Shown here piece after piece: positions 15,796-22,168 of a stretch of 30,422 bases of DNA. How positions within the stretch are numbered: the stretch's first letter is position 1; each line of letters starts with the position of its first letter. Position numbers and translations under genes: made by a program. The stretch is taken from positions 1 to 30,422 of IMG/VR virus record IMGVR_UViG_3300046028_002293. The stretch is one strand, 5' to 3'. Below the pieces are notes generated by a model. That model was not told where the DNA came from and made no database searches. It was given only the letters and a program-made list of their open reading frames with translations. The stretch is from a virus.

Positions 15796-17026
15796 TTACC
15801 AATCATTTGCAAATGAATATGATCCATTATTTTCATATTGTGATAATTTGTTTAGTGCAACATAACGGATGGCATCAATCGCATGATTAAGCACATCTTC
15901 CGGTGCGTTAATTGCCTTCCCTGTCTTATCCTTTGCCCATTTGTATTGCCTAATCTCTTTGATCAAATTTAGGCTGCCCCTGGTGATTCTCATGTCATAT
16001 TGTTGTAACCTATCAATTGAATTCTTTATGGAATCCGGCCCTTTCCTGGCTGCCTCAACATAAAACCCGGCTAATGATAAATCCATTATTGATTTTGGTT
16101 CGGCTGAATCCGCAACAATGCATTCATTCACATTTACATTTTTCTGCTTCAAATGTTGGATGATGTCTGAATTTGTCAATTTGGTTTGATACAACATTTC
16201 ATCAATGTAAATTTTATCATCAAAACGATAAACCCCTACCAATGCTGTTGGATCTGCGGAAAATCCCCAATCTAAACCATAACTGATGAATTCGGCATCA
16301 TCCGGAATCATGTCGCATTGTTCCCAATTGTTAAAAATAACCCCTTCCAATGATCCTATTTCCCCCAGGCCATAAACTTTGAACCAATTGGCCCAAAATG
16401 ATGATCCCTGTTCCGCCTTTGCTTTTGCTTTGTTGATGAAATTCAATGATTCCGCCGGGCATGCTTCGTTATCGGTGTAATTAATGATCAGGAAATCAAC
16501 ATCGTTATCATTCATCAATTCATCATGAAACCAAAACGGATTTGTTGGGTTCCAATCCAGGTAAACCCCCTTTTTTGTCCTGGATGCAAGTTCGGTGTAT
16601 GAATGAAAATTCATGTTGTTTGCCTCATTCATGTATAACCAATCTCTCCTGGCCCCTCTTAATTTGGAATCATTATCTGCGGAAAAAAATTCAATCTGTG
16701 ATCCATTGGCAAAGTTATATTTGAAATCTGTTTGATTGAACCTATCTGAAAACCACCGGCCGGTATCAATCATGATCTTTCGAAAATCTTTCATGGCCCC
16801 CCTTTTCAAATGTGGTATGGATTCCGCCACAATGGAAATTTCTGAATTTGGAAATTTTGTTGCAATATCAATTAAAATTGGGATGATTGCGTATGTTTTG
16901 CCGGCTTATTGTATCCCCTGAATATTACTAATCAGGGGATTAATAAGCAGAAGAGCCGCCCTGGACTCCTCTACAAAACTTTTTAAGATTCTTAATTTTA
17001 TTTACCGCTGTTGTTCTAATAAACAT
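15796..17026 (-). CDS. terL: Large terminase subunit, reading frame interrupted by a 43-nt hairpin insertion
   Basis: Packaging motor ATPase and nuclease. The 5' part starts at ATG 17026 (MFIRTTAVNKIKNLKK, 27 residues to GVQGGSSA) and overlaps the upstream gene by 11 bases. It then meets TAT TAA. The gene resumes one frame over at 16905 with the alanine codon GCC, then GKTYAIIPILID, and runs unbroken to 15796. Joined, this gives 395 residues, a normal length for the family. In joined numbering the P-loop is GGSSAGKT at 23-30, the Walker B-like LYMNE at 116-120, and nuclease acids Asp238 (YGLDWG), Asp292 (VADSAEP) and Asp370 (HAIDAIRY). So every catalytic residue is kept, and only the 43-nt insertion inside the P-loop breaks the frame. 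Either a recoding/removal event restores the protein or the gene is dead. A GTG at 16830 would give a product without the P-loop. Confidence 0.85.
16904..16948 (-). other. Hairpin insertion in the terminase P-loop; candidate translational bypass element
   Basis: On the minus strand: GCTTATT, A, ATCCCCTGA, a ten-base loop, TCAGGGGAT, AC, AATAAGC. The 7-bp outer and 9-bp inner stems are perfect, with one small internal loop between. Removing 43 bases restores an uninterrupted terminase frame. Flanking alanine codons are GCT (16948-16946) and GCC (16905-16903), with 40 bases between them containing stops in the entry frame (TAA at 16942) and directly before the landing codon (TAA at 16908). Resembles T4 gene 60 bypass layout; mechanism is inference. 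Confidence 0.7.
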
Positions 17027-17143: not shown

Positions 17144-17344
17144 TTAAAAACGTTCGATTAATCTAATCCGATTATTTAAACATGATAAATATGTTACCAT
17201 TGCATTTTCTTGAATTTCCAACAATGCTTGTTGATGTCCATCCAATTTTTGATATTCATCCGTAAATAAAAAATCTTCTAAATTCTGAATCTTTTGATGC
17301 AATTCATTGCGTTCAATTTCTAATCTTTCAAAAAAATCACTCAT
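17144..17344 (-). CDS. Small helical protein, unknown function
   Basis: 66 residues: SDFFERLEIERNELHQKIQN followed by LEDFLFTDEYQKLDGHQQAL and LLEIQENAMVTYLSCLNNRI. Two amphipathic helices with a 'QQALL.IQ..AM..YL.CL..R' pattern that I recognise as common in small phage proteins of many hosts, without a known role. Lies between the two terminase genes with about 20-base spacing. Confidence 0.65.
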   Translation of the reverse strand: MSDFFERLEIERNELHQKIQNLEDFLFTDEYQKLDGHQQALLEIQENAMVTYLSCLNNRIRLIERF

Positions 17345-17364: not shown

Positions 17365-17826
17365 TTAATCAGGAAACAAAGGTTGTTCAACTTTCAAATC
17401 CGTTTGGGTTTTCTCCACCAGGTTGTTCAATCTCTGTGTTATGCTCGGATTGTAAATTCCGGCCATGCCCCCGGCTATCTGATCTTCCCGGATTGTTCGC
17501 TTTATACGTGAACAGACATCCGAAAATTTTTCGTATGCCCCCCCGGTGTTGCCAAAATAATCATCCGTATCTTTTAAGATCCCCAATGAAAAAACATAAT
17601 TGGAAAATCCTTCGTATGTTAAAGGTTTTTCTTTTGGCCTTTCAACTTGCTGTGCCATTCCACCAACCCAATCTCGAACATAAAACGGATTTGATTTAAC
17701 TTTTGCTTTGTATTCCAAAAACAATTCAAACATCATTTCCGGTGATTCTATTTGTTTGGGCCTTCCAACCGGTTGTTTATTTGTTTTCGGCTTTGTTTTC
17801 GGCTTTGGTTTTATTTGCTTTTGCAT
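17365..17826 (-). CDS. terS: Small terminase subunit, GP3-package type
   Basis: 153 residues. A Lys/Pro-rich N-terminus (about 1-22) precedes VGRPKQIESPEMMFELFLEY, then LTYEGFSNYVFSLGI, YEKFSDVCSRIKRTIREDQI and AGGMAGIYNPSITQRLNNLV. This order (GRP, F..Y, GF..Y, F...C.RIK, A..G.YN.....RL.GL.) is that of the DNA-packaging protein gp3 family, which recognises the genome end and loads the large subunit. The start overlaps the upstream gene by 50 bases in another frame, through a duplicated 12-bp unit. Next methionines (MMFEL) would cut the DNA-binding part, so the long start is preferred. Confidence 0.75.
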   Translation of the reverse strand: MQKQIKPKPKTKPKTNKQPVGRPKQIESPEMMFELFLEYKAKVKSNPFYVRDWVGGMAQQVERPKEKPLTYEGFSNYVFSLGILKDTDDYFGNTGGAYEKFSDVCSRIKRTIREDQIAGGMAGIYNPSITQRLNNLVEKTQTDLKVEQPLFPD

Positions 17827-21119: not shown

Positions 21120-21338
21120 TTATTTCGTCAATTGCTTATCTTCCGGAATAAATCCGGTTCCCTGTGTTCTGTCGGTTGCTTTTAAGAAATCCACTTCCAT
21201 TTTAACTGAATTAACAATCACCTGGGCAACATCTGCAATGGCTTTGGCCCTGTTGATTTCCATGGGATTGTCGGGATCCATCAATGATTCCATGGTTGCA
21301 AATAAATGATTCCGTAAATCTTCAATCTTGTTTTTCAT
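21120..21338 (-). CDS. Conserved small phage protein, unknown function
   Basis: 72 residues. KIEDLRNHLFATMESLMDPD followed by PMEINRAKAIADVAQVIVNS and AKMEVDFLKAT-like VKMEVDFLKATDRTQGTGFI form a helical pattern ('DRAK.IADVAQ.II..AK.EVD.LK') shared by small proteins in replication regions of phages of many hosts, including enterobacteria. No role is known to me. Its start overlaps the HNH gene by 17 bases, and it ends just before the promoter/operator of the primase-helicase gene. Confidence 0.7.
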   Translation of the reverse strand: MKNKIEDLRNHLFATMESLMDPDNPMEINRAKAIADVAQVIVNSVKMEVDFLKATDRTQGTGFIPEDKQLTK

Positions 21339-21945
21339 TAATTACTTTTTTTATTTTGTTTAAAATTCTGATTGTCTGCCTTACTTCCTTTGGAAATCTC
21401 ATGATGGTATTTTTCGCCATGTTTTCCCCATTACTTACCAATTCCAGGTTTTCAATGTTTACGTTTAATCTGTTGCCATCCTTAAACCTAATTTTCATAT
21501 CATCCGGAATTGGGCCATGGTGTTGCTCATAAACAACCCGGTGTTTTAATTTGTAAACATTTTTACTAATCCTGATTTGTATGTAACCATCTTTTGTTAT
21601 CCGTTCTGCCCCTTCATGTTGAAGATTATGCGGCTCATGTCCTTTTTGGTACATGGTGGCTGCAAATCGTTTGTAAAGTTCTTCCGGCATTGGTTTGCCT
21701 TTGTTTGGTGGTGTGCTGCCCTTTTTGAATCTGTATGATGCCCCATCTGTTTTCAGACGTTCCGCCTGTTTACCCAATTCCATTTTTAAAAATTCCGGTG
21801 ATTTCTTTAATCTCAATGCATAGGATTTGCCGGCAACTTGTGTGTATGATTTATTTAATGCGGCACAAATATCTTTTGTGTATGTGTTGGCAAAATTCAT
21901 TTTTAAATATTTTATGTCCTGATCTGTCCATTTTTTACCATACAT
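21322..21945 (-). CDS. HNH-type endonuclease with Myb-like N-terminal domain
   Basis: 207 residues from MYGKKWTDQDIKYLKMNFAN; a longer frame reaches 22044 but would run through the upstream gene by 89 bases, and this ATG lies 10 bases after it. N-terminal helix-turn-helix (about 5-45), a basic linker with GSTPPNKGKPM, then an HNH-like core: YIQIRISKNVYKLKHRVVYE followed by HHGPIPDDMKIRFKDGNRLN and IENLELVS. The first His (KHRVVYEQHH) and Asn (GNRLNVNIENL) are present, but the middle His of HNH is replaced by Phe (IRFKDG), as in a known phage subset. Free-standing homing-type nuclease is the likeliest identity; activity uncertain. Confidence 0.75.
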   Translation of the reverse strand: MYGKKWTDQDIKYLKMNFANTYTKDICAALNKSYTQVAGKSYALRLKKSPEFLKMELGKQAERLKTDGASYRFKKGSTPPNKGKPMPEELYKRFAATMYQKGHEPHNLQHEGAERITKDGYIQIRISKNVYKLKHRVVYEQHHGPIPDDMKIRFKDGNRLNVNIENLELVSNGENMAKNTIMRFPKEVRQTIRILNKIKKVINEKQD

Positions 21946-21955
21946 AATTAATAAT

Positions 21956-22168
21956 TTAAATTTTTTTTCTTGCAAATATTTTAAATGTTCTACCATTACC
22001 ATCGTAAAAGCAAATGTTTGATGTACTGGTGTTGTTAATTTCAATAACTAACTTTTTAGTATCTTCTAATGGTTTTGCTAACAATATTGGTTCATCATCA
22101 TCAAATTGGAAAACCCATTCTACATTCTCAAAAACGATTGTTTCTATAATTTTTTTTTCTTTTGACAT
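21956..22168 (-). CDS. Unknown small acidic protein
   Basis: 70 residues starting MSKEKKIIETIVFENVEWVF. Alternating hydrophobic strands (VEWVFQFDDDEPILLA, KKLVIEINNTS, ICFYDGNGRTFKIFARKKI) suggest a small beta protein. It sits between the zinc-ribbon gene and the HNH gene, 10 bases apart on each side. No family recognised. Confidence 0.5.
   Translation of the reverse strand: MSKEKKIIETIVFENVEWVFQFDDDEPILLAKPLEDTKKLVIEINNTSTSNICFYDGNGRTFKIFARKKI

Follow-up and report, generated by a model that had tools for sequence, protein, structure and literature searches.

High-efficiency bypassing in phages has so far been treated as unique to gene 60 of T4, and bypassing has been called apparently unique to this gene among T4-related phages (PMC3014915). 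In T4 gene 60, a topoisomerase gene, the gap is 47 nt long, its hairpin starts right after the take-off codon and a further 25-30 nt or so lead to the landing codon. A stem-loop 5′ of the take-off site re-forms as the ribosome departs (PMC5009743). Bypassing of this type is further characterised by a stop codon immediately after take-off, a stimulatory nascent peptide and a Shine-Dalgarno-like sequence some 6 nt ahead of the landing codon. The HNH gene mobA lies upstream of gene 60, and the 50-nt bypass region of T4 has been proposed to protect against mobA cleavage (PMC5009743); Bonocora and colleagues (2011) reportedly presented mobA together with the bypass region as one mobile cassette. 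The byp elements of Magnusiomyces capitatus mitochondria are also small bypassed inserts and tolerate imperfectly matched landing codons (PMC5009743). For the terminase gene of Streptomyces phage Hau3, a bypass has been proposed from its sequence; the gap has a UUA codon at its centre and a suggested regulatory role (PMC5009743). A 29-nt hop has been reported for an adhesin gene of Prevotella loescheii, a member of the Bacteroidota (PMC5009743).

Here, a 43-nt insert that splits the P-loop of a phage large terminase gene (terL) was analysed. We consider it likely, with a probability of roughly 0.8, that it belongs to a family of inserts that occupy the terL P-loop, are mobile and are bypassed by ribosomes; the bypass is inferred, without protein, cDNA or reporter data. 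These inserts resemble the T4 gene 60/mobA system in being tens of nucleotides long, in lying in a phage ATPase gene, and in having a gap hairpin with a tetraloop, a stem-loop (here putative) 5′ of the take-off codon and an upstream HNH gene (PMC3014915, PMC5009743). Unlike in T4, the hairpin fills the gap, with 5-6 nt before it and 1-8 nt after it, the gap is only 29-41 nt long, a stop codon is not obligatory, the gene encodes a terminase, and the inserts occur in dozens of lineages of Bacteroidota-type phages rather than in one. The terL inserts would work like T4 gene 60 but are not classed in that family, because a stop next to the take-off codon is not a general feature, the two geometries are different and terL is unrelated to gene 60. 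They also differ from the byp elements, 81 of which lie in most genes of one mitochondrial genome, in that there is one per phage and only in the P-loop; from Hau3, in which the gap is much shorter and no hairpin insert with an HNH gene has been described (PMC5009743); and from the P. loescheii adhesin, a cellular gene known from a single report without follow-up. No other account of a terminase bypass was found in the openly licensed literature searched.

The split terL of the window

The window is the whole stretch of DNA analysed, 30,422 nt of the IMG/VR record IMGVR_UViG_3300046028_002293. Its minus strand carries a tailed-phage packaging module that includes a primase/helicase-like gene (DUF3987), the small terminase gene terS, a crAss001_48-like ORF and terL, with the following features:

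17365..17826, minus strand: terminase small subunit (terS), phrog_606
17144..17344, minus strand: small crAss001_48-like ORF of 66 aa between terS and terL, PF21825
16946..17026, minus strand: N-terminal reading frame of terL, from the ATG to the take-off codon, reading MFIRTTAVNKIKNLKKFCRGVQGGSSA
16947..16959, minus strand: possible 5′ stem of GCGG (16959-16956) with CTGC (16950-16947) and a 5-nt loop, taking in two bases of the take-off codon; the stem is inferred
16946..16948, minus strand: take-off codon GCT, the P-loop Ala, a homologous site in all Ala-type inserts
16906..16945, minus strand: coding gap of 40 nt, with the in-frame stop TAA (16942-16940) as its second codon
16913..16940, minus strand: gap hairpin with arms 16940-16932 and 16921-16913 and loop 16931-16922, based on covariation and fold z
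16903..16905, minus strand: landing codon GCC
15796..16902, minus strand: C-terminal reading frame of terL, from GKT to the stop, with ATPase and nuclease residues, based on a match to terminase families in PHROGs and on alignment

From the ATG at 17026, terL runs to CAG GGC GGC TCT TCT GCT (16948-16946), which is followed by TAT TAA. It resumes in another frame at GCC (16905-16903) GGC AAA, encoding A-GKTYAIIP..., and its stop ends at 15796. The two reading frames are 43 nt apart and the Ala codons GCT and GCC are separated by 40 nt (16945-16906). The hairpin has a 9-bp stem and a 10-nt loop, plus an outer 7-nt pairing of 16948-16942 with 16910-16904, and its predicted fold beat 200 of 200 dinucleotide shuffles (z -3.95). 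An earlier note, made without database searches, had described a hairpin insert splitting the terL P-loop, with a 7+9-bp stem, a ten-base loop and the Ala codons GCT and GCC at the edges of the gap; this description held, and its coordinates, frame separation and gap length were confirmed. No second terL was found within the window, and no DNA match to the window was found among 50,697 phage records.

Inserts at the same P-loop in other phages

A scan with the C-terminal half of terL yielded 80 relatives, most of them with an uninterrupted GG[ST]SAGKT motif; ten carry an insert at the same codon, with differing sequences. When contigs were scanned by pattern for P-loops interrupted by 30-62 nt, with no assumption on the sequence of the insert, the total rose to 81 further IMG/VR viral contigs from 66 metagenomes, and one Chitinophagales MAG (L280) also carries an insert. 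Because homologous and analogous inserts at the same P-loop recur in all of these, the insert is not an assembly error and goes beyond chance. The earlier note had named an assembly artefact and, in combination with a lack of junction peptide and packaging, a second intact terL as findings that would refute its reading; the former is ruled out by these inserts and the latter is absent from the window. Bacterial genomes with terminase relatives are mostly those of Bacteroidota, and therefore the hosts of the inserted phages are probably Bacteroidota. Inserted phages diverge down to about 42% terminase identity. In cultured relatives (Flavobacterium psychrophilum phages, e.g. FpV9), terL is annotated as uninterrupted, and two surveys of about 400 genomes each, covering the order and the class of the Bacteroidota relatives, gave nothing beyond the known MAG.

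The earlier note had also suggested looking for the hairpin in other genes. A motif scan for hairpins of the window type matched terL only, apart from chance matches without a proper stem, and the exact loop sequence of the window had no match in viral contigs. A clade-specific hairpin scan returned 17 contigs, 16 with terL inserts that were already known and a new one (L354) likewise in terL. An insert-only covariance model run over about 1.4 Mb found no second insert. Of 20 whole records searched for the insert, 17 matched at one site each (some on both strands of the palindrome), and the other three (the Gly-site alleles L206 and L225 and the unrelated L208) were below threshold. The only low-E-value match of the insert model outside terL was a terminator-like intergenic hairpin with a T-run, CCCCTGCA...TGTAGGGG, at L114:3957-3998 and L118:2550-2591.

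Comparison of the 49 distinct gap sequences showed one common plan. The take-off codon is usually followed by 5-6 unpaired nt and then by a C-rich/G-rich stem of 6-12 bp, after which come 1-8 mostly A-rich nt, the landing codon and resumption of the reading frame. The loops are of 4 (often GUAA, GCAA or GAAA), 6 or about 10 nt, many of them GNRA tetraloops, and gap position +4 is U in all 49 gaps. The stem is shown to covary: for a nine-bp stem in 40 sequences, the covariation score was 0.591 compared with 0.184 ± 0.021 after shuffling, double-change cells numbered 86 compared with 27.8 in the shuffles, 92% of the stem cells were paired, and covariation was also far above that of slid controls.

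Simple frameshifting and stop read-through were rejected, because the gaps, 29-41 nt long, occur in all three phases and straight in-frame read-through is possible in none of the 62 unique alleles, every one of which meets a stop or a frame change. The first stop after take-off lies at codon +1 in 3/49 gaps and at codon +2 in 27/49, and is later or lacking in 19/49. The UAU between take-off codon and stop, which the earlier note had regarded as a difference from T4, falls within this range: a near stop after take-off is common in the family but not universal. Reinitiation was also rejected, since the P-loop is incomplete in either half. The G-run in the 3′ arm of the stem lies upstream of the landing codon at a variable distance, the run itself being within the stem; a strict Shine-Dalgarno role for it was considered, for which the spacing to the landing codon is too variable.

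Both halves of the gene are shown to be under purifying selection, with dN/dS among inserted alleles of about 0.30 for the N-terminal part and 0.22 for the C-terminal part, whereas the gap read as codons showed no purifying selection. The N-terminal frame is intact in all inserted relatives, and this part of terL resembles that of uninserted relatives. The in-frame stop and the frame change in the window could also mean that terL is dead, or yields two separate polypeptides, and that the phage is defective. This is very unlikely, as in more than 80 phages the two halves evolve under purifying selection and retain every motor and nuclease residue, the window has no second terL, and each half lacks half of the P-loop. 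The disrupted packaging gene that the earlier note had offered as an alternative is thus unsupported.

Take-off codons, landing codons and an upstream synonymous signature

The insert site is a Ser, Ala or Gly codon of GG[ST]SAGKT, mostly the Ala codon and in a minority the next Gly codon; in one phage (L366) the insert follows the preceding Ser codon. The landing codon is shown to shift with the take-off site, from GCN to GCN or GTN at Ala, from GGN to GGN at Gly and from TCC to TCA at Ser. The two codons share their first two letters in 46 of the 62 inserted alleles; among other same-frame triplets, 37 of 712 share them with the take-off codon. With a G-U pair allowed, the count is 61 of 62, and the third base matches weakly (29/62, p 0.04). 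All Ala-site alleles have C or U as the second base of the landing codon, and both can pair with G35 of tRNA-Ala. The sole Ala-site landing codon without an initial G is the ATA of the Chitinophagales MAG contig, mismatched at position 1, which makes this allele useful for testing the stringency of re-pairing. In L366, TAA directly follows the take-off codon and an HNH gene lies in front of terL.

A synonymous signature upstream of the insert is firmly established. The first Gly codon of QGG[ST]S is GGT or GGC (GGY) in 56/56 inserted compared with 21/50 uninserted alleles, and the Ser codon is TCT or TCC (TCY) in 54/56 compared with 1/50, whereas adjacent synonymous positions showed no difference between the two groups. 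On the terminase tree, 9/9 independent comparisons agreed (p 0.004). The GGY and TCY pair permits a 4-bp GYGG...CYGC stem that ends in the take-off codon, in 54/56 inserted and 0/50 uninserted alleles. It is likely that the signature forms a small 5′ stem that aids bypass, but both the stem and its function are inferred, and energy predictions are not always favourable: the stem is absent from the minimum-energy fold of the window, and folding predictions do not favour it in every member.

In the proposed mechanism, the peptidyl-tRNA would leave the take-off codon (GCT in the window), the hairpin would remove the gap from the decoding path, and the anticodon would re-pair at a cognate or near-cognate landing codon (GCC in the window). 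Translation would then restart at the next codon, giving a single full-length terminase with an intact Walker A loop. The small 5′ stem would probably help, like the 5′ stem-loop of T4 gene 60.

The main rival, which cannot be excluded without RNA data, is splicing of a tiny intron, in which an unknown nuclease and ligase would excise the hairpin and leave GC|C GGC AAA. The exact restoration of the P-loop, the covarying hairpin and the variable length would also suit an excised RNA, and the GTN and ATA triplets before resumption would be free under excision. However, no splicing system is known to us for about 40 nt of such form, and no Rfam intron or ribozyme match was obtained; no group I or group II catalytic core was found in the insert, which is only about 40 nt long. 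Splicing also gives no reason for the downstream triplet to follow the take-off codon at the Ser, Ala and Gly sites, or for the second base of the Ala-site landing triplet to be restricted to C or U, and T4 gene 60 is a direct precedent for bypass with HNH linkage (PMC3014915, PMC5009743). We thus regard splicing as unlikely and ribosome bypass as the preferred reading.

Patchy distribution and HNH linkage

At least nine changes between presence and absence were counted on the terminase tree, and the patchiness of the insert is shown. Phages with about 93% identity over kilobases can differ in whether they carry the insert; identity then drops to about 70% in roughly the last hundred bases ahead of it and nowhere else, as seen in L062/L060/L063 compared with L057/L056. 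This short tract is probably a trace of conversion, although the evidence is indirect as to nuclease cutting.

Of 56 inserted phages, 15 have an HNH_3 gene (in part with NUMOD4) that overlaps or directly adjoins the terL start, compared with 0 of 73 uninserted phages (Fisher 1.1e-6), demonstrating a linkage between the two. Such genes occur with Ala-site and Gly-site inserts and in two C-terminal types. For one HNH protein, 10/10 matches of at least 60% identity (query included) precede an inserted terL. In the window, as in the majority of inserted phages, no HNH gene adjoins terL; the terS-terL interval of the window, the one that holds the HNH gene in other inserted phages is occupied by the crAss001_48-like ORF, whereas its nearest relative (L002) carries a terL-abutting HNH gene. 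Taken alone on the tree, the HNH linkage rests on few independent cases. Under the bypass reading, the inserts would spread between phages by recombination, with the HNH gene before terL in many of them acting as a homing endonuclease gene, and the insert would shield terL from that nuclease, by analogy with T4 mobA and gene 60; both homing and protection are inferred.

The repeated gain and loss, together with matching edge bases that resemble a target-site duplication, would also fit a palindrome of transposon-like or REP-like nature acting at the DNA level, which duplicates 2 nt of its target and is either tolerated or excised from the DNA. This is very unlikely, as each phage record has a single copy, always in the same loop, and contigs retain the insert; moreover, the GNRA loops, the invariant U, the synonymous signature and long-term covariation indicate selection on RNA. 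An element may insert at the DNA level and still be bypassed at the RNA level.

The two proposals of the earlier note, a programmed bypass and a small mobile element, both have strong comparative support from the covariation, the matched take-off and landing codons at three codons, the variable gap phase, purifying selection on both halves, the patchy distribution and the HNH linkage, although bypass is unproven at the protein level. Its view that a terminase bypass would be new held in part, a different, short one having been proposed for Hau3 (PMC5009743). A bolder reading, which we also consider likely although bypass is inferred, is that bypassing is common in nature and that mobile inserts spread by HNH genes parasitise the terL P-loop of Bacteroidota phages, with take-off at Ser, Ala or Gly, a simple hop-over-hairpin geometry and no obligatory stop codon. 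If this is true, the roughly 50 distinct gap sequences, whose natural variation spans take-off codon, stem, loop, spacers and landing codon, would reveal the features that ribosomes need to skip mRNA, and would support bypass inserts as mobile elements tied to homing endonucleases. Gene callers split such terminases, and hence complete phages may be scored as broken.

Other HNH genes were observed at different positions. The window encodes an HNH_3 protein (phrog_1891; 21325-22044, minus strand) about 4.3 kb upstream of terL and before the DUF3987 gene, elsewhere than the terL-abutting HNH genes of other inserted phages. In L162, an HNH ORF ends 409 nt before an uninterrupted terL without abutting it, possibly marking another homing site, and in L061 (contig ~4442-4573) an HNH_3 gene lies just downstream of an uninserted terL.
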